Shown: positions 4,716 to 30,617 of the stretch, in pieces
Layout: the number at the start of each line of letters is the position of its first letter
Numbering within the stretch: position 1 is the stretch's first letter
IMG/VR virus record: IMGVR_UViG_3300042373_001555
Coordinates: 1 to 36,811 of that record
Length of the DNA: 36,811 bases
Strand: one strand, 5' to 3'
Source: a virus
Made by a program: the position numbers and the translations under genes
The notes under the pieces: model-generated
What the model was told of the DNA's origin: nothing
Databases searched by the model: none
The model's input: the letters and a program-made list of their open reading frames with translations, nothing else

Positions 4716-7700
4716 ATGGAAAAAATAGTTTTAGGTAAGATTATAAAAAAGATTTTTTTATTATCTGTATTAATATTATCATTAATCGGCGTAACCCAAA
4801 AAGAAGTAAATGCTTCTCACGTTGTTGGTTCCGACATATCTTATGTCTGTACAACCACACCAGGTGTTTATCGTGTTCAGTTTAAGATATATAGAGATTG
4901 TCAGGGTGTTCAACTCTGTGCCAATTGTCCCACAAGTTTAAGTCCTTCTTGTAATATTCCAATTATATTGACAGGTGGATCTGCACCTACAGGTTCAGGT
5001 TTACCAACAAGCCCTTGTGCTGGAATTAATTTTGGAACCCAAAATATAAATGTGGTTACAGGTGTTAGTGGTTTTGATGTTGTACAACTATGTTCAGGAG
5101 AAAAATCCATTTGTACTAATTGTGGGACTAGAACACCTGGTACTTTTGTTCCTGGTATTGAGGTGTATACATTTGAAGGGAATATTAGTTTAGCATCTAT
5201 TCCGGCTAGTTGTTGTTTAATCAATATAGGTTATAGTATCTGTTGTAGAAATGATGCTATAACTACTTTAGTAAATCCTGGCGCTTTAAATTTTTATACT
5301 CAAGGTACAATTAATAGGTGTGTAACACCTTGTAATTCTTCTCCAACATTTACAAATGACCCTGTTGCGGTTACTTGTGCGGGACAAGATTTTACTTACA
5401 ATTTAGGAGCTATTGACCCTGATGGTGATTCTTTAAGTTATTCTTTTGGGCAATCACTTACAGGACCTGGTGTTACGGCGCCATATCTTTCACCATACAG
5501 TGCCAATGTACCACTACCTTATTTAGGTGCGCCAATTCAAACACCACCTGCGGTTCCTCCTATTGGTATCAGCATAGATCCTGTAACTGGAGATCTACGG
5601 TTTAGACCGATGGGAACCTTTGTTGCTAATTTAATTATAGAGGTTCGACAATGGAAAATGGTAGGAGGAGTACCTACCTTAATGGGTGTAACTCGAAGGG
5701 ACATTCAGTTTTATAGTAGGATTTGTCCTGAAAATAACCCACCTGTTTTACGAACATGGACCAATGATGGAGTTTTAACCTCACCACAACCAAACTTTAG
5801 TTATTCTGTTTGTGCTGGACAACAATTATGTTTTATGATTTCTGCTTGGGATAATACCGCAGTTACCGATACTACAGACATTACTTGGAACGCGCCAACA
5901 TTATTAGTTAGTAAAGGTGCTACATTTGTTAAAGCATATAATCCTATTCAAAGAACTATGATTGGACCAAAATATGATAGTGTTCGTTTTTGTTGGACAC
6001 CTGGTCCTGAAATGGCGAGTAATTTACCTTATTATTTTGTTGTTACCGCCAAAGATAGGGCGTGTCCTATTCCGGCTCGTACTACAAGATCATTTAGTAT
6101 TTTAGTTAGAAGGATTCCTATAGCAAATATCATTAAAACCAACAAAAATTGTGGCTTCTATGATTTTTCATATACTCAAACAAATGTCGTTCCTATTAAC
6201 CCTTCGTATACTAAATTCTTAATTGAAACAAGCCCTAATTCTAATACTTACCAAACTTTTGTTGGACCTAATGTGATCAATCATAGATTTTTACAAGGTG
6301 GTTGGCATAAAATTAGGTTACAGTTAACAACAACTGCACCACCATCACCCAATGGTTGTCCTAACGATAATATTTGGGACTCTGTTTTGGTGGTACCTCC
6401 TGTTGATGTAAATATTAGGGATACTTTTAATTGTTTTGGAACTTCAGTTATAGTTAGGGCAAATGGACGAGATGGTACGCCTTTTGGTAGTACTTATCGG
6501 TATACTCTATATGGTGGTGGTATGGGTTCAAACAACATTATTAGAACTTTTGGTATTGATTCCAATTTTGTAATAAACCCAACAAACCCTGGTGTTAGTA
6601 GCTCTTACAAAGTTGTTATTCAGGATTTGAATGGTTGTAAAGACTCAACTTTATTAAATGTGTTTACTCGTAATTTACCGATTAAAGAGTTACCAAATTC
6701 TGTTCGTTATTGTTTTGGTGCAACTGACACCATAGATGGTGGTAATAGTAATGGTAGTGTTAATATTTGGCGTTGGAATAAAATTCCTGTATCACCAGTA
6801 TTGACTGATACTGTATCACAAAAAATTACACCAAGAGATAGTGGTCAATATATTGTAAGAAAAACGGATTTAAATGGGTGTTCTCAGTTGGATACTATTA
6901 TGGTTTATATTAATGAAAGAGTACCTGTTAGTGCTGGTCCTAATCGAACTATTTGTGAGAAAGACGCACCAATAAATATAGTTGGTGTTGGTACGACCGC
7001 AGCCATAGATAGTTTTCAATGGAGATCGATTCCAATATCAAACCCTGATGTTGTTTTAAGTAGAACATCAATTCTAAATGTATCACCATTGATTACAACC
7101 AGTTATCAAGTGAGAGGATTTTTAACTTATGGTGGTGTTGGATGTTCTTATGTTGATACTATGGATGTAATAGTTAAACCATTACCAATAATTAATAGAC
7201 CTGATAATATGTCTTTGTGTAGAAATACTAACATAGTATTACTACCAAATATTACTTCTACAAACAAACCTGGATTGATAACATCGGTATGGAATTATCC
7301 ATCAAACCCAAATGCGATTAATGGTAATCAAGTTATAATATCTAATTTAATTAATTTACCACCAGTACCACCAACACCTGTAAGAGGAAATATTATTCGT
7401 CTTAACGTAAACGATGTTGATGGATGTAGAATAAGTGATTCAATCGTAATCTCTGTCTTTCCTGTACCATTAATTAACGCAGGATCAAGTAGAAACTTTT
7501 GTGATTTTGCTAGTGTGTTTAACATTAACCCAGGTTCCCAACTATATTCTCCAAATGGAGGTGCGTTAGCAACTAATGAAGAGTGGTTTGGTCGTGGTAT
7601 TAATAAACCAAATCCCGCGATTAATTATTATGCATTTAATCCACAAGGTGTTGACGTATTAACTTTACCTGACACAAATATTATAACTTATAAATTTACT

Positions 7701-9563
7701 GCTACATTCCCATTAAATAATAGTGTGTTATTTACACCTGCGGTTAGTGGTTTTTTCGCACCATCACCAATAGGAGGTTGTTTAGCTACCGATACTTTGG
7801 TATTTTCAGTAATAAAAACTCCGAAGTTAGAAACAGGTATTGCACCATCTTTATGTAGGTCAGGTACTATTGTCGATATAGATCAACATATGTTAGGTAG
7901 AAGTACAACATCTATTAACCCACTAAGTAGTTATTGGTATATTGGATCACCTGATCAGATGTATAGGACTTCAATAACTAATGGTAGAAATTTCAACCCA
8001 TCAAGTCCTATATTAGAAAATTTCACCAGACAGTACAGATTAGTATATGCTGACACATCAACAACTTGTAGGGTTGCGGATACAACTACAATTCAAGTTA
8101 ATGAGAATCCTGTTGTGGATATCGATTATAATATTGTTAGTGATAGTTCAATTTGTAAAACTCGTGGTAGTGTATTCTTCTTTATGAATCCAAATAACAT
8201 TTCAAGTGTTGATGGTGAGATGAAAAGTTTTCCAACTTTACCGACCACAGCATTTGATGTAACTAATGGTAAATTTACAATCAATAATGTTCCTGATGGG
8301 GTTTATAATATTAAATATTATTATAAGGATCCTGGAACGGGATGTGATAACAAAGATTCAATAAATATTAGAATACAAAGTCCACCTCAGGTAGATATTG
8401 TAGATGATGGATCGGTTTGTTCTTATGATGCCATTTTTAATGTGGGGTTTAAAACAATACCAAGTTCGCCATATACTTGGAATTGGGTAACACCTGATGG
8501 TAACGGGAATATTATTGATAATGGTATAAATGGAATTAACTATACCGCAACACCATTCGACATTATTCGTGGAAAAGTTACTTTTAAAGTTACAACTATA
8601 GATTTAACTACCGATCCCGATATTTGTGGTTCTGTAAGTGATTCTATAACTTATACGATTAAACCAAAACCAGTTGCTGATTTTACTATATCACCTGATA
8701 GAGGTTGTGTTGATGAGAGATATGGGTTGGTGTTAAATTCAACTTATACTGCGGTTCCAAGTATTGTGGGTAGTACTTATAAGTGGTATATGGATGTTAC
8801 TGATTTTAATAGTACACCACTTAACTCAAATCCATTTAATCAAACTGTTTTATCACAAACATTTACTAAATCAGGAAATCACAGGATATATTTGTTTGTT
8901 GAGGCTGATGGTTGTAAAGATACTACTGACGCTACATTAACTGCTTGGCCAACACCAGTTGCGTCATTTACCACGGATCCAAAAAGTACAACAATTGCTA
9001 AACCAAATTTTGATTTCTTTAATCAATCAAATATATCCGACAATTCAAACTTAAAATATATTTGGTATTTTCCACCACTAACTCCTGGTATACCAAGAGT
9101 AGATTATACTTTTGAACCAACCCAAGTTCAGTTTATGGCAGATACTGGTTTACAGTGTATAAAACTAACTGCGATTAGTCCTAACGGTTGTTATGATTCT
9201 ACACTAGAATGTGTTCGTATTGAGCCAGATATCACGGTGTTTATTCCAAATGTATTCCGTCCGATTAACGTTGATGGAAAAGGGGGAAGTACGATAGAAT
9301 GTGGATTTGGATGTAATAGGACTTTCAAAGTAAGTGCTACAGGATTTGAAACATTAGAAATATTTGTATTTAATCGTTGGGGTCAAAAGGTTTATGAATC
9401 ATACATGACAGATAAAACGTACAATCCTGAGGAAGGGTGGAATGGAAGAGACTTTAATAAAGGACAGGATTGTCAACAAGATGCATATATTTACCAAGTA
9501 AATGCAACCAGTTTTAACGGTAAAAAATACACATACAGCGGTTCGGTTACATTATTAAGATAA
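4716..9563 (+). CDS. Giant secreted gliding-motility-associated protein with T9SS C-terminal (CHU_C) domain
   Basis: The 1615-residue product has a signal peptide (hydrophobic core at 13-26, likely cleavage after A33 in EVNASHVVG). Its N-terminal region, with SHVVGSDISYVC and YRDCQG, is typical of Flavobacteriia surface proteins. Many Cys-bearing Ig/PKD-like repeats follow, some with the GPNRTIC type of motif. The last ~110 residues match the gliding-motility-associated C-terminal (type B T9SS sorting) domain: FIPNVFRPINVDG, FVFNRWGQKVYES, WNGRDFNKG, AYIYQVNATSFNGK and a final SGSVTLLR. Such proteins are exported by the host type IX system and anchored or released at the surface. Finding one among phage-type genes is odd: it may be a captured host adhesin, a surface-remodelling factor, or a sign that this stretch is host DNA. 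Confidence 0.88.
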   Translation: MEKIVLGKIIKKIFLLSVLILSLIGVTQKEVNASHVVGSDISYVCTTTPGVYRVQFKIYRDCQGVQLCANCPTSLSPSCNIPIILTGGSAPTGSGLPTSPCAGINFGTQNINVVTGVSGFDVVQLCSGEKSICTNCGTRTPGTFVPGIEVYTFEGNISLASIPASCCLINIGYSICCRNDAITTLVNPGALNFYTQGTINRCVTPCNSSPTFTNDPVAVTCAGQDFTYNLGAIDPDGDSLSYSFGQSLTGPGVTAPYLSPYSANVPLPYLGAPIQTPPAVPPIGISIDPVTGDLRFRPMGTFVANLIIEVRQWKMVGGVPTLMGVTRRDIQFYSRICPENNPPVLRTWTNDGVLTSPQPNFSYSVCAGQQLCFMISAWDNTAVTDTTDITWNAPTLLVSKGATFVKAYNPIQRTMIGPKYDSVRFCWTPGPEMASNLPYYFVVTAKDRACPIPARTTRSFSILVRRIPIANIIKTNKNCGFYDFSYTQTNVVPINPSYTKFLIETSPNSNTYQTFVGPNVINHRFLQGGWHKIRLQLTTTAPPSPNGCPNDNIWDSVLVVPPVDVNIRDTFNCFGTSVIVRANGRDGTPFGSTYRYTLYGGGMGSNNIIRTFGIDSNFVINPTNPGVSSSYKVVIQDLNGCKDSTLLNVFTRNLPIKELPNSVRYCFGATDTIDGGNSNGSVNIWRWNKIPVSPVLTDTVSQKITPRDSGQYIVRKTDLNGCSQLDTIMVYINERVPVSAGPNRTICEKDAPINIVGVGTTAAIDSFQWRSIPISNPDVVLSRTSILNVSPLITTSYQVRGFLTYGGVGCSYVDTMDVIVKPLPIINRPDNMSLCRNTNIVLLPNITSTNKPGLITSVWNYPSNPNAINGNQVIISNLINLPPVPPTPVRGNIIRLNVNDVDGCRISDSIVISVFPVPLINAGSSRNFCDFASVFNINPGSQLYSPNGGALATNEEWFGRGINKPNPAINYYAFNPQGVDVLTLPDTNIITYKFTATFPLNNSVLFTPAVSGFFAPSPIGGCLATDTLVFSVIKTPKLETGIAPSLCRSGTIVDIDQHMLGRSTTSINPLSSYWYIGSPDQMYRTSITNGRNFNPSSPILENFTRQYRLVYADTSTTCRVADTTTIQVNENPVVDIDYNIVSDSSICKTRGSVFFFMNPNNISSVDGEMKSFPTLPTTAFDVTNGKFTINNVPDGVYNIKYYYKDPGTGCDNKDSINIRIQSPPQVDIVDDGSVCSYDAIFNVGFKTIPSSPYTWNWVTPDGNGNIIDNGINGINYTATPFDIIRGKVTFKVTTIDLTTDPDICGSVSDSITYTIKPKPVADFTISPDRGCVDERYGLVLNSTYTAVPSIVGSTYKWYMDVTDFNSTPLNSNPFNQTVLSQTFTKSGNHRIYLFVEADGCKDTTDATLTAWPTPVASFTTDPKSTTIAKPNFDFFNQSNISDNSNLKYIWYFPPLTPGIPRVDYTFEPTQVQFMADTGLQCIKLTAISPNGCYDSTLECVRIEPDITVFIPNVFRPINVDGKGGSTIECGFGCNRTFKVSATGFETLEIFVFNRWGQKVYESYMTDKTYNPEEGWNGRDFNKGQDCQQDAYIYQVNATSFNGKKYTYSGSVTLLR

Positions 9564-11340: not shown

Positions 11341-11392
11341 ACTATATTTATAATCTCAAGTCCGAAAGGACAAACATCCCCACAAATATAGT
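11341..11392 (+). ncRNA. Short structured element after the Nudix gene
   Basis: A 9-bp outer stem ACTATATTT/AAATATAGT (11341-11349 and 11384-11392) encloses a hairpin GTCC-GAAA-GGAC with a GNRA loop (11360-11371). It lies 20 nt past the Nudix stop. No T run follows, so a simple terminator is unlikely. It may be a 3'-UTR processing element or a small RNA. Confidence 0.4.
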
Positions 11393-11470: not shown

Positions 11471-11520
11471 GTCCCACATATGTTTGATTATTTGAAAAAA
11501 TAGTTTTAACTTTGTGGGAC
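11471..11520 (+). promoter_or_regulatory. Promoter P2 framed by an 8-bp inverted repeat, upstream of the tRNA
   Basis: TTTG (11483-11486), a 20-nt spacer and TAACTTTG (11507-11514) form a good Bacteroidota promoter about 38 nt before the tRNA. It is enclosed by the perfect inverted repeat GTCCCACA (11471-11478) and TGTGGGAC (11513-11520). A repressor could bind this, or a read-through transcript from P1 could fold across it. Confidence 0.65.
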
Positions 11521-11552
11521 TTAAATTGAAAGTTCTTTTACTTAAGATATAT

Positions 11553-11625
<73 letters not shown>

Positions 11626-11647
11626 CAAAAAAAAACTTCACAAAAAG

Positions 11648-11679
11648 TTTGACAAATTAAAAAGTTTATCTTACCTTTG
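11648..11679 (+). promoter_or_regulatory. Promoter P3
   Basis: TTTG (11648-11651), a 20-nt spacer and TACCTTTG (11672-11679). It is nearly identical to P4, 115 nt downstream, over about 45 nt including the AAAAAGTTTGA lead-in and the GTGAAACA that follows, so the pair arose by duplication. Confidence 0.75.
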
Positions 11680-11683
11680 TGAA

Positions 11684-11748
11684 ACATTTAACAATCACCG
11701 AATTCAAATCTCACTATCGGTAATTAATAGAGTTAGGTTGTTAAAAAA
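11684..11748 (+). ncRNA. Candidate short RNA between P3 and P4
   Basis: The stretch downstream of P3 contains no ORF. It can close on itself by TAACAA (11689-11694) with TTGTTA (11738-11743) and an inner ACCGA/TCGGT stem, followed by an A-rich run. It may be a separate small RNA or the 5' leader of a longer P3 transcript that includes the large RNA. No T run supports termination here. Confidence 0.35.
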
Positions 11749-11762
11749 ACTTTCACAAAAAG

Positions 11763-11794
11763 TTTGATAAATTGAAAAGTTTATCTTACCTTTG
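11763..11794 (+). promoter_or_regulatory. Promoter P4 of the large structured RNA
   Basis: TTTG (11763-11766), a 20-nt spacer and TACCTTTG (11787-11794). Transcription would begin close to 11799, a few bases before the 5' strand of the closing helix of the large RNA (11808-11817). Confidence 0.78.
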
Positions 11795-11798
11795 TGAA

Positions 11799-12797
11799 AC
11801 AATCACGAAAAGGTTGACGTTGTTGTAAAACTATGGTTTCCTTTTCTAAAATTGAAATTCGTTCTTTGAATATAAAATATTTATCCGTTCAGTAGTTTAT
11901 TATGAGACCTTCGGGTTGATTATGAGACATTTAATCTGATAAAGGTAATCGGCCGTATATGGTCGTTAAATAAACCATGAAAGTGGGATAAAGTGAACCT
12001 GTTGTGTTAACAGGATTGCGGCTTCGGTAACGGAGCTCGAGTATACAGGCGAGATATCATCTTTGCTTTAGTAATCGAGGGTAACACTGTAGATGAAGAG
12101 TTGAGATGACCAAGCGATGTGGGTCGTTTGGTTGAGATGGGAACATCAATAAGAATAACTCGTAGGGATATTGTAAAAAGTGAGACCTCCAATCTCATCA
12201 TTGCGAATTCCAATACGAAAGTGGACTTAAAACCGAAAGGTATGATAGAGTACAGGTGGTGCTGTTACTATCCCTACTTTGAATCTACCAAGGTTCTTAG
12301 TTTGAAGTAAACTTGACATATGGAGGTGGGGACATCTCAGGGAGTAGTTTAGTATTCTGTTGTTCAAAAGATAACGGAGCTTACGGTGGACCACTACTTC
12401 TATCATCCACGACACAAACCTTAATATACATATGTTAATGTAATAATTAATTAAAATATCAAGCACAAGTGTCCATCAGGTTTTGATGAAAGTCGCCTAC
12501 ATAGTCATGGGTTGTCCATGGCACACTGAGACTGCAAGTTGATGTGTATTTTTACCAAAAACCTCTAAGGGGTCGAACCCTGAGTTAGCTCGCAAGGTTA
12601 AAGAGAGTTGAGTAATGAAAGAGTAGTTAAAACCTTTAGGAGTGATTGGTCTAACCAATCGGCGATGAGGATTACATCCCAAAAGGATGTGGATATAAAG
12701 GGAACTAATAATCCTTTTAAAGATTCTCAATAATAGGTGTAATCTCAACCTTTTTAGCCACTAAACCTCATCTGTTAATTCAGGTGGGGTTTTTTTA
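11799..12797 (+). ncRNA. Large ornate non-coding RNA (about 950-1000 nt), GOLLD/ROOL-like candidate
   Basis: About 1 kb lacks a credible ORF but is packed with helices. The ends join: AAAAGGTTGA (11808-11817) pairs perfectly over 10 bp with TCAACCTTTT (12745-12754), just before a terminator. Inside are many clean hairpins: CGGCC/GGTCG (11950-11965), CCTGTT/AACAGG (11998-12014), a 9-bp stem ACCAAGCGA/TCGTTTGGT (12109-12132), GATG-GGAA-CATC (12136-12147), TGAGA/TCTCA (12181-12197), ACC-GAAA-GGT (12232-12241), AGTTT/AAACT (12299-12313), GAGGTG-GGGA-CATCTC (12323-12338), CATCA/TGATG (12474-12488), CATGG/CCATG (12506-12520), GATTGG/CCAATC (12644-12660) and ACATCC/GGATGT (12674-12690). Several loops are GNRA. 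Size, dedicated promoter and tRNA adjacency resemble the phage-associated GOLLD and ROOL RNAs. Membership cannot be decided by eye. Confidence 0.82.
12763..12797 (+). terminator. Terminator of the large RNA
   Basis: The stem ACCTCATCTG (12765-12774) pairs with CAGGTGGGGT (12781-12790) over 10 bp with a 6-nt loop and a T run. It follows the closing helix of the RNA by about 10 nt. Confidence 0.85.
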
Positions 12798-27640: not shown

Positions 27641-28594
27641 ATGAAAGATTTAATTTTTATTACAGCTTTTTGTCCAACAGAAGAACAAGAAAGAGTTTTG
27701 GAAAAATGTGTTGATTCGGTTTTACAATGTGGTAAAGATATTGCATTAATATCTCATTCACATATACCAATACATATTCAAAAAAAATGTCAATATTATC
27801 TTTATGACCATCTAAATGATACGTCCGATGATTATAATTTATTAGGGCATAATCATTTCAGTTTTAATAATCAAAAAATACAATCAAGATTTTTTAGTAA
27901 AACATTTTATGGATTTGCAATTTATAGAATGTTTTCAATGGTAAGTCAAATTGCCATAAATTTTGGATACGACAATATTCATCATATTGAATATGATTGT
28001 GAGTTATTAGATAAAACTTTGATTGATAAAAATAGTGATTATCTTAAAGAATACGATTCTGTTATATGTACAGATAATGGTAAAAAAGATGGATTTCTTT
28101 TTGGTTCCTTTAAGTCTTTTAAAGTAAGTTCATTACCTGAACATTTTAAAAACTATAATAGAGATTTCATTGAAAATGAAATGAAAGTACTTGAGCCAAA
28201 ACAATTAGAATTCTTTACAAAAAATCTTTTCATGAATAACGGAAAGGTATTATTTCAAAATGAACCATCTGAGGATAAATTCAAAAGAGGTAAGGCATTT
28301 TACAATAGAAATTTACATTACACATTATATTACAACCCAATTGATTTAACCTTAAACATTTTTTATAATTCAATAAATGACAATGAAGAAAATATAGTTG
28401 TTATTGTTAATAAAGAAAAAGTAATTAATATTTCGGTTAAACCAAATCATTGGCATATAAGAAGTTTGGGAGTTTTTGACAATATAAATCATGTAAGAAT
28501 AGACAATTTAAAAAAAGTTATATATGAAAAAACATTTGATGATAAGTTTAGAGAGGTTTTTAAAATAAAGGCATACATAATGGATATTGAATGA
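27641..28594 (+). CDS. Glycosyltransferase-like protein, 317 aa
   Basis: The N-terminus MKDLIFITAFCPTEEQ, a region LEKCVDSVLQCGKDIALISH and a DxD-like HIEYDCELLDK segment resemble nucleotide-sugar-dependent glycosyltransferases that extend surface glycans. The SVICTDNGKKDGFLFGSFKS region also fits. The C-terminal third is beta-rich. It is the first gene of a four-gene operon; the stop overlaps the next start by 4 nt. Donor and acceptor cannot be read. It could glycosylate virion or host-surface material. Confidence 0.6.
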   Translation: MKDLIFITAFCPTEEQERVLEKCVDSVLQCGKDIALISHSHIPIHIQKKCQYYLYDHLNDTSDDYNLLGHNHFSFNNQKIQSRFFSKTFYGFAIYRMFSMVSQIAINFGYDNIHHIEYDCELLDKTLIDKNSDYLKEYDSVICTDNGKKDGFLFGSFKSFKVSSLPEHFKNYNRDFIENEMKVLEPKQLEFFTKNLFMNNGKVLFQNEPSEDKFKRGKAFYNRNLHYTLYYNPIDLTLNIFYNSINDNEENIVVIVNKEKVINISVKPNHWHIRSLGVFDNINHVRIDNLKKVIYEKTFDDKFREVFKIKAYIMDIE

Positions 28595-29418
28595 AAAAAA
28601 TAATAAATTTCACACCAACAGGAACTCAAACCACAAGGAGTAATTCATTTGCACCATTAACACCAAATGAAATAATTGATTCAGTTTATGAGGCAAACGA
28701 GATTGGAATATCTATTGTTCATTTACATGCAAGAGATGAGGTTACATTAGAGAATACCTACAAGAAAGAAGTATATCAAAGGATAATAGAGGGGATAAAA
28801 ATATATTGTCCTGAACTATTAATTTGTGTATCATTAACGGGAAGAAACTTTCCTGAGTTAGAAAAAAGGTCGGAGGTATTACAATTATATCCTGACATGG
28901 GTTCACTAACAATGTCATCATTAAACTTTCCATCAGGGACATCAATCAATCAACCTGAGATGATATTATCTTTAATCAATGAGATGGATAAGTATGGGGT
29001 TCAACCTGAGATAGAATGTTTTGATACAGGGATGTTAAACTATACAAATTACATTATTTCAAAGAACATATTACAGCCACCATATCACATCAATATCATA
29101 TTAGGAAACATGTACAATGGTCAATGTGATTTGGGTACCTTATCAACAATCAAAAACAATCTACCATCAAACTCATTTACCTGTTTGGGTGGAATAGGTT
29201 CACAACAACTAAAGAGTACAACATACGGGTTATTAGATTTTGATGGAATTAGAATCGGGTTGGAAGATAATCTATATTACAAAGATAAGGTAAAGACAAC
29301 AAATATGGAGTTATTAAAACGTGCCCATAGGATAATGAATGAGTTGGACATGAAACACTATACATCAAAAGAATTAAGAGAAAAAGGATATGGCAACAAA
29401 ATTATTAATATTAGGTAA
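28591..29418 (+). CDS. BKACE (beta-keto acid cleavage enzyme, DUF849) family protein
   Basis: The 275-residue protein has INFTPTGTQTTR at the N-terminus and SIVHLHARDE with H44 and H46 as the likely zinc ligands. Further in are GSLTMSSLNFPSG, a VQPEIECFDTGML region and GIRIGLEDNLYY near the end. These fit the BKACE family (3-keto-5-aminohexanoate cleavage type), which condense or cleave a beta-keto acid with acetyl-CoA. The length matches the family (about 270-310). BKACE is rarely expected in a phage. It overlaps its neighbours by 4 and 29 nt, suggesting a joint pathway with the acyltransferase and aminotransferase. Confidence 0.88.
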   Translation: MKKIINFTPTGTQTTRSNSFAPLTPNEIIDSVYEANEIGISIVHLHARDEVTLENTYKKEVYQRIIEGIKIYCPELLICVSLTGRNFPELEKRSEVLQLYPDMGSLTMSSLNFPSGTSINQPEMILSLINEMDKYGVQPEIECFDTGMLNYTNYIISKNILQPPYHINIILGNMYNGQCDLGTLSTIKNNLPSNSFTCLGGIGSQQLKSTTYGLLDFDGIRIGLEDNLYYKDKVKTTNMELLKRAHRIMNELDMKHYTSKELREKGYGNKIINIR

Positions 29419-30043
29419 GGGGGATAATAACATTACGATGATATTGGATAACTTGTATTCACATAATACAAGACAACCTGATATTCACGTATACAATAAT
29501 TTGAATCTACCAATCCTAAACACATTTGAACATGATAGATTTAATATTGAAATGTTTAACACGGTCAATATGGATGACTACGACTTGATGGCTCTTGGTG
29601 TATATCAACCATCACATAAGATAAAAATCGTGGAGACATTAAATCCTGATAAGAACAAATTCATGAATATAATTCATGATGGTTTGGATATCTCTTACAC
29701 GAGTAAACTTGGTCGTGGACTTCTAATCAATTCAAAGGTATCAATTGCCGCACACACGACCATAGGAGACTTTGTATCAATCAACAGACATGTTTCCATA
29801 GGTCATCATACAAACGTCGGTGACTATTGTTCTATCAACCCAGGAGTTAACATTGCGGGAAACGTAACCATAGGAGAAGGAACAACAATAGGAATAGGTG
29901 CAAATATAATTGACGGGATAAAGATAGGAAAGAATTCCATAATAGGTGCAGGTTCAGTTGTAACAAAAGACATTCCCGATAATGTAATTGCTTACGGTAA
30001 TCCATGTAAAATAATTAGAGACAATGAAACACAATCCATATAA
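29390..30043 (+). CDS. NeuD/PglD-like acyltransferase (left-handed beta helix), 217 aa
   Basis: An N-terminal Rossmann-like part (ATKLLILGKGDNNITMIL) precedes a left-handed beta-helix of hexapeptide repeats from about residue 110: TTIGDFVSINRHVSIGHHTN, VGDYCSINPG, VTIGEGTTIGIGAN and NSIIGAGSVVTKDIPDN. This layout is that of the sialic acid O-acyltransferase NeuD and the sugar acetyltransferase PglD, which acylate amino or hydroxyl groups on nucleotide sugars. It overlaps the BKACE gene by 29 nt and the next gene by 20 nt. The N-terminal part is longer and less typical. Confidence 0.82.
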   Translation: MATKLLILGKGDNNITMILDNLYSHNTRQPDIHVYNNLNLPILNTFEHDRFNIEMFNTVNMDDYDLMALGVYQPSHKIKIVETLNPDKNKFMNIIHDGLDISYTSKLGRGLLINSKVSIAAHTTIGDFVSINRHVSIGHHTNVGDYCSINPGVNIAGNVTIGEGTTIGIGANIIDGIKIGKNSIIGAGSVVTKDIPDNVIAYGNPCKIIRDNETQSI

Positions 30044-30617
30044 GATAGTACAAATGTTTGAGGAGGAGATTGCCGAATATACGGGAGCTCCATACGCAGT
30101 GGCATTAGATAATTGCACTGATGCATTATTTTTATGTTGTACATACTTGAATGTGGAACATGTTACAATACCTAAGAAGACTTACTTATCGGTTCCACAG
30201 GCTGTAATGGCATCAGGGGGAAAACTATCTTTTGATGATGTGGAGTGGAAAGGGTTGTATCAATTAAAACCATACCCAATTTATGATTCAGCAAGAAGAT
30301 TCACTTCAAATATGTATATACCAAATACATTCATGTGTTTATCGTTTCATCCCAAGAAGACACTAAAAATGAGAAAGGGTGGAATGATTCTAACTGATAA
30401 TGAAGAGGCATACAAATGGTTTAAGAAAGCAAGACACGAAGGTAGAGATGAAATACCATATACCCAAGATAATATAAAGTTTATGGGATGGAATATGTAT
30501 ATGACACCACCTGATGCCGCAGAAGGATTGTGGTTAATGTCGTCAATGCCAAAGGATAATGAAGATACAATAGAGGATTATCCTGACCTAACAAGAAATG
30601 ATTTATTCAAATTGTAG
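30024..30617 (+). CDS. DegT/DnrJ/EryC1/StrS aminotransferase, half-length
   Basis: The 197-residue product has the N-terminal half of the PLP-dependent sugar aminotransferase fold: FEEEIAEYTGAPYAVALDNC, TDALFLC, IPKKTYLSVPQAVMASGG, YPIYDSARRF (D88, PLP nitrogen) and SFHPKKTLKMRKGGMILTDN, where K111 or K112 would be the PLP lysine. Family members are usually around 370-400 residues, so the C-terminal domain is missing. It may be a natural minimal form, as the stop is followed closely by the next promoter, or a truncated gene. It may aminate the substrate of the acyltransferase upstream. Confidence 0.8.
   Translation: MKHNPYKIVQMFEEEIAEYTGAPYAVALDNCTDALFLCCTYLNVEHVTIPKKTYLSVPQAVMASGGKLSFDDVEWKGLYQLKPYPIYDSARRFTSNMYIPNTFMCLSFHPKKTLKMRKGGMILTDNEEAYKWFKKARHEGRDEIPYTQDNIKFMGWNMYMTPPDAAEGLWLMSSMPKDNEDTIEDYPDLTRNDLFKL

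Follow-up and report, generated by a model that had tools for sequence, protein, structure and literature searches.

The window analyzed here, a linear 36.8-kb virus record from IMG/VR taken at its full length of 36,811 nucleotides, contains a roughly 1-kb noncoding stretch (positions 11799-12797) that is a genuine GOLLD RNA, a member of a known family of giant phage RNAs. Its placement as a new GOLLD member in a widespread phage lineage is secure. For the proposal as a whole, we consider it likely that this is the GOLLD of a large tailed, probably Bacteroidota phage, which would be transcribed from a host-polymerase promoter through a boxA leader and would assemble into a cage; Nus-factor use, transcription, assembly, stoichiometry, and host are predicted here from sequence.

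Identity, extent, and distribution of the RNA

An Rfam scan of the whole window returned only two matches, one to tRNA and one to GOLLD (RF02032), the latter covering positions 12340-12751 and the complete model (positions 1-416 of 416) at 321.2 bits (E = 2e-91), against a family cut-off of 150 bits. An earlier note on this DNA had described the stretch as GOLLD/ROOL-like or possibly a new class; the Rfam check confirmed GOLLD, and the new-class option fails because the complete RF02032 model is matched. ROOL resembles the window RNA in being a large, cage-forming phage RNA that is often found near tRNAs (PMC12286853), but the ROOL option fails as well, with no match at the Rfam gathering score anywhere in the window. 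Since the RF02032 model spans the 3′ domain only and the 5′ half is undetectable in a Streptococcus GOLLD, a separate large-RNA class, or ROOL, could be argued for; the full-length match at 321 bits and the lack of any ROOL match refute this reading, and its probability is negligible. GOLLD RNAs in general are phage-borne and often lie near a tRNA, and the window RNA is carried by a viral record with a tRNA-Met adjacent (11553-11626), in line with the neighboring tRNA noticed earlier. The RNA and its 3′ end are made up as follows:

11885-12337, + strand: GOLLD 5′ domain, homologous in at least about 156 loci, with 23 significant covarying pairs
12340-12751, + strand: GOLLD 3′ domain (RF02032), complete model, 321.2 bits
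12405-12462, + strand: A/U-rich variable linker from the alignment, with no tRNA inside (ARAGORN)
12763-12792, + strand: terminator-like stem followed by a T-run (intrinsic type), from a scan

The GOLLD body thus extends over approximately 11885-12756 (~870 nt) and is preceded by a leader at 11800-11884; a transcript of about 950-1000 nt, starting at approximately 11800, would be expected. The 5′ domain may, by analogy, be equated with the cap domain of the cryo-EM structure. GOLLDs normally vary in their 5′ domain, and the corresponding linker in the solved structure is disordered within the cage (PMC12286853). Among these loci, ARAGORN found no tRNA genes inside the linker. The terminator reported right after the RNA was recovered at 12763-12792, and stems resembling it were also aligned in three related loci (L039, L045, and L024). 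The claim that its size is at or above that of the largest known members holds in part, as the body is within the usual range or slightly above it, compared with 833 nt for the cryo-EM specimen env-38 (PMC12286853).

Scanning for a conserved 3′ motif yielded 44 viral loci, which together with four named phages made up 48 tested records, all matching GOLLD and 47 of them above the family cut-off. The corresponding scan for a conserved 5′ motif yielded at least 120 stretches, all with the GOLLD profile, and a profile search with the whole RNA gave matches in all of at least 160 viral loci, several of which represent the same phage from different samples; the few matches short of full length were mostly ended by the contig end. 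Both GOLLD domains are shared by the huge uncultured phages LR756502 (642 kb) and LR745206 (635 kb), Acinetobacter phages clearly share the 3′ domain and weakly the 5′ domain, and the part in common with Streptococcus GOLLD is the 3′ domain only. In Streptococcus phage phiARI0746 (KT337365), for instance, the GOLLD resembles that of the window in its 3′ domain (RF02032 at 282.7 bits) and its upstream tRNA, but it has a 5′ domain without detectable similarity and no boxA-like motif between its tRNA and 3′ domain. Across 140 distinct loci, tRNA-Met lies at most 400 nt upstream of GOLLD in 23 and at most 300 nt downstream in 19. A tRNA-Met-like sequence directly 3′ of GOLLD was observed in L009, L010, L011, L013, L023, L025, L026, L031, and L033, whereas in the window clade it is upstream. 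Neither motif was detected in a scan of 84,980 bacterial and archaeal genomes, so that the host cannot be named via a prophage; this absence suggests that the phages of the lineage are virulent rather than prophages.

Covarying structure and probable cage contacts

Covariation was tested over all column pairs of an alignment of 99 non-redundant homologues, using an APC-corrected G statistic; null alignments were simulated along a FastTree tree, the observed substitutions being redistributed among columns. The test was implemented in our own code following the logic of R-scape, and is not R-scape itself. Sixty column pairs covary at E < 0.05, and 57 of them are at least 85% canonical. The 60 pairs span 11957 to 12750; the 5′ domain accounts for 23 and the 3′ domain for 37. 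RNAalifold predicted 40 helices of at least three pairs, most with double compensatory changes, and many of the clean internal hairpins described earlier are real, with abundant compensatory changes in homologues. The single-sequence fold of 11885-12756 has a z score of -2.7, none of 20 shuffles being as stable. Eight significant pairs are located outside the nested structure (11957/12044, 12057/12152, 12340/12401, 12341/12400, 12464/12534, 12496/12662, 12497/12661, and 12694/12742) and mark pseudoknots or contacts. As judged from the alignment, RNA structure is under selection over the whole length. Protein coding was considered, given that some ORFs longer than 60 aa exist, and rejected because their frames are broken in most homologues: each of the four is interrupted in-frame by stop codons in 73-97 of the 98 homologues, in agreement with the earlier statement that no credible ORF is present. 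With the pervasive covariation, these broken frames refute an origin as coding sequence or chance structure, which is left with next to no probability.

Local elements of the structure are as follows:

11955-12046, + strand: loop 11955-11959 with linker 12042-12046, fully complementary in 98 of 99 sequences, in eight combinations with 21 changes on the tree
12109-12118/12123-12132, + strand: 10-bp hairpin, 96% paired, with three significant pairs and eight pairs with double changes
12463-12464/12534-12535, + strand: two-base contact, complementary in 98 of 99 sequences, with 12 changes on the tree
12573-12576, + strand: loop L21a, UCGA, its center dinucleotide palindromic in 96 of 96 readable sequences
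12735-12751, + strand: hairpin P27 with a conserved loop (12736/12750, E = 3e-8; 12737/12749, E = 4e-6)

Two helices had been singled out in advance as starting points for the covariation check. The 12109-12132 stem is supported by its three significantly covarying pairs. The perfect 10-bp closing helix between 11808-11817 and 12745-12754 failed as an anchor and is likely a chance match; it was rejected because 13% of dinucleotide shuffles contain a perfect 10-bp helix whose arms are separated by 500 nt or more, because its 5′ arm belongs to a leader segment found only in the closest relatives (~90% identity) and missing elsewhere, including L024 and L039 (~81%), and because its 3′ arm overlaps P27, which is among the best supported hairpins.

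The solved GOLLD env-38 is a hollow, RNA-only 14-mer cage; its bridge B7 runs between loop L20 and linker J13/15, and its bridge B8 is formed by the self-kissing loop L21a through a GC or CG dinucleotide (PMC12286853). The two-base contact, which occurs in the states GC:GC, GG:CC, GA:TC, TC:GA, or GT:AC, is probably the counterpart of B7, and the loop at 12573-12576 is probably the self-kissing loop of B8; the former was assigned by position and the text of that paper, without coordinates, and the latter likewise by position and text. The L21a center is GC in 75 sequences, CG in 18, and AU in 3, with three further sequences having no readable loop; AU is a third palindrome here, whereas the env-38 paper mentions GC and CG only (PMC12286853). 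The contact between 11955-11959 and 12042-12046 may be either a pseudoknot or an inter-chain contact. The covariation at sites of known inter-chain contacts supports a conserved quaternary structure. Like env-38, the window RNA has a full 3′ domain, a separate 5′ domain, an A/U-rich variable linker, a tRNA-Met neighbor, a palindromic L21a, and a two-base contact fitting B7; it differs in its longer body (~870 versus 833 nt) and in belonging to a lineage of probable Bacteroidota phages with an rRNA-like promoter-boxA leader. Few natural RNA assemblies are as striking as the GOLLD cages, and this lineage provides a deep, diverse, whole-length alignment and independent support for the cage contacts.

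Promoter, boxA-like leader, and probable host

The region upstream of the RNA body contains the following features:

11507-11626, + strand: separate tRNA unit, with a TAACTTTG promoter (11507-11514), a degenerate boxA (11532-11540), and tRNA-Met
11553-11626, + strand: tRNA-Met(CAU) (ARAGORN), ending about 174 nt before the expected GOLLD start
11763-11794, + strand: Bacteroidota-type promoter read in the sequence, with TTTG at 11763-11766 and TACCTTTG at 11787-11794
11800-11884, + strand: leader, poorly conserved in the alignment apart from the boxA-like motif
11861-11870, + strand: boxA-like motif GTTCTTTGAA, with GTTCTTTGA at 11861-11869

The combination TTTG / TAnnTTTG is the consensus of Bacteroidota promoters, and TAnnTTTG is located at a similar place before most of the homologous GOLLDs. 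The "strong promoter" claimed just before the RNA is therefore present as a promoter of Bacteroidota type, but not as a strong sigma-70 site: the best nearby sigma-70 match is 9/12, and such matches are no more numerous than in shuffles. Downstream of this promoter, GTTCTTTGA is the commonest upstream 9-mer, found exactly in 72 of 94 non-redundant loci and with at most one mismatch in 91 (shuffle expectation, 0.06 and 2.5, respectively), and it is conserved while its flanks vary. Its usual distance from TAnnTTTG is 26-28 nt, compared with 66 nt in the window.

The same order of elements was found in rRNA operons. Plasmid records supplied eight Bacteroidota rRNA leaders: exact GTTCTTTGA precedes 16S in five of them, four of which also have TAnnTTTG further upstream, and is lacking in the other three. 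Firmicutes rRNA leaders also use GTTCTTTGAAAA. Bacteroidota rRNA leaders and the window leader thus share the identical promoter type and order (TAnnTTTG, then GTTCTTTGA, then the RNA body), but the former drive rRNA and the latter a phage structural RNA, at a shorter distance to the body. A scan of the viral contigs detected no Bacteroidota 16S start. The published boxA consensus GYTCTTTAANA, which is E. coli-based and gamma-proteobacterial, is one base off GTTCTTTGA (PMC5725501). The leader is rRNA-like and probably of the boxA antitermination type. No boxA-like motif was present directly upstream of the Acinetobacter and Streptococcus GOLLDs inspected, so a boxA leader is not a general GOLLD trait. 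Neither boxA nor antitermination is mentioned in the GOLLD structure paper (PMC12286853). As judged from a search that took in few subscription papers, an rRNA-like leader on a GOLLD is, provisionally, the part of this work that is apparently novel and unreported before.

The host is probably a member of the Bacteroidota, as suggested jointly by the promoter type, the rRNA-like motif, and a C-terminal CHU_C type IX secretion signal domain in a 1615-aa protein encoded in the window (4716-9563, + strand). Type IX secretion is a Bacteroidota trait, and the CHU_C domain also occurs in 8 of 16 large relatives, compared with 0 of 14 control genomes. The C-terminal part of this protein has relatives in the 635- and 642-kb phages; it would be unusual for a phage protein to be routed via host type IX secretion. 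That these are tailed phages is shown by terminase genes, which are present in 12 of the 16 large relatives. Neither NusB nor a large RNA-polymerase subunit was detected by Pfam in these 16 relatives, so a boxA signal would act through host factors.

Promoter-boxA modules, proposed mechanism, and neighboring elements

In 1.49 Mb of DNA, 102 of 109 promoter-boxA modules precede GOLLD, compared with none in shuffled DNA. In 18 whole phage records, 22 module matches occur at 21 places, 20 of which lead to GOLLD, tRNA, or tmRNA genes and one to none of these; by target, these are 14 GOLLDs (two via tRNA genes), four tRNA arrays, and two tmRNAs. The two tmRNA cases (RF00023, 74.5 bits) are the same sequence in two records. 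A backward control pattern gave seven matches in the same 18 records, so that some module matches could be due to chance by number, but not by position. The phage tmRNA in L213 (1541-1929, RF00023 at 74.5 bits) lies directly behind a module, and another was observed in L206 (69-476, 64.9 bits); ARAGORN missed both.

In the proposed mechanism, host RNA polymerase would initiate at the Bacteroidota promoter, and the boxA-like GTTCTTTGA of the nascent leader would bring in host NusB and S10 in the manner of rRNA operons. Owing to this recruitment, the ~0.9-kb untranslated RNA would be copied without Rho-dependent termination, folding during transcription. The finished RNA would comprise a cap domain (5′) and a ring domain (3′), and its copies would assemble into a hollow cage resembling the env-38 14-mer. 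GOLLD levels increase in the course of lysis, and the RNA assembles into RNA-only cages (PMC12286853); our best guess is that the cage stores or protects translation components while the cell is being lysed. The module, being common to tRNA and tmRNA genes, suggests that GOLLD may belong with them to a set of phage RNAs whose role late in infection is to serve translation or to protect it. We lean toward the broader view that Bacteroidota phages run an rRNA-style program, in which the promoter-boxA module brings host Nus factors to GOLLD, tRNA arrays, and tmRNA alike, and cages are made and co-transcriptionally folded by machinery reserved for ribosomes. The lineage connects GOLLD with rRNA-type transcription in a way that can be put to the test, and it indicates the likely host group as well as companion genes (tRNAs and tmRNA) under the same control.

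Two other roles for the leader have to be weighed. If the RNA is GOLLD but GTTCTTTGA is not an antitermination signal, the motif could be a promoter-proximal element, a processing site, or part of the RNA structure: the boxA role is read from sequence and position, the promoter-motif spacing differs in the window clade, and RNAalifold weakly pairs 11862-11868 with 12636-12642. That pairing lacks significant covariation, however, and GTTCTTTGA is kept at a common position after the promoter while its flanks vary, and also precedes tRNA arrays, a tmRNA, and rRNA genes, making this reading unlikely. A very improbable alternative is that the leader chiefly titrates NusB and S10 off host rRNA operons, thereby stopping host ribosome synthesis, with the cage being secondary. 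An rRNA-like leader on a probably abundant RNA, in a phage without its own NusB, would fit such a role, but a decoy would not need a conserved fold of ~870 nt, and tRNA and tmRNA genes are preceded by this module as well. Antitermination through host Nus factors is the reading we prefer.

Several further elements surround the GOLLD. Intact TTCTTTGAA occupies the spot of the degenerate boxA of the tRNA-Met unit in L045, L032, and L024. Between tRNA-Met and GOLLD, an extra TACCTTTG promoter (11672-11679) is followed by a short imperfect hairpin with arms TTTAACAA (11687-11694) and TTGTTAAA (11738-11745); this 11672-11745 unit, possibly a small RNA, is similar in L045 and L032, and L039 has a different insert there. 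Directly 3′ of a Nudix gene, ACTATATTT (11341-11349) and AAATATAGT (11384-11392) form a stem that encloses an inner GTCCGAAAGGAC hairpin, and this element includes TAATCTCA, which is also the loop motif of GOLLD P27. Of the 29 loci with a Nudix gene, many have it no more than ~1 kb upstream, and in L115 GOLLD is flanked by two Nudix hydrolase relatives (tblastn). Farther downstream (28591-30617, + strand), genes for a beta-keto acid cleavage enzyme (PF05853, E = 1e-60), a hexapeptide transferase, and a DegT-family aminotransferase stand in a row, possibly forming a surface-sugar or metabolic cassette.
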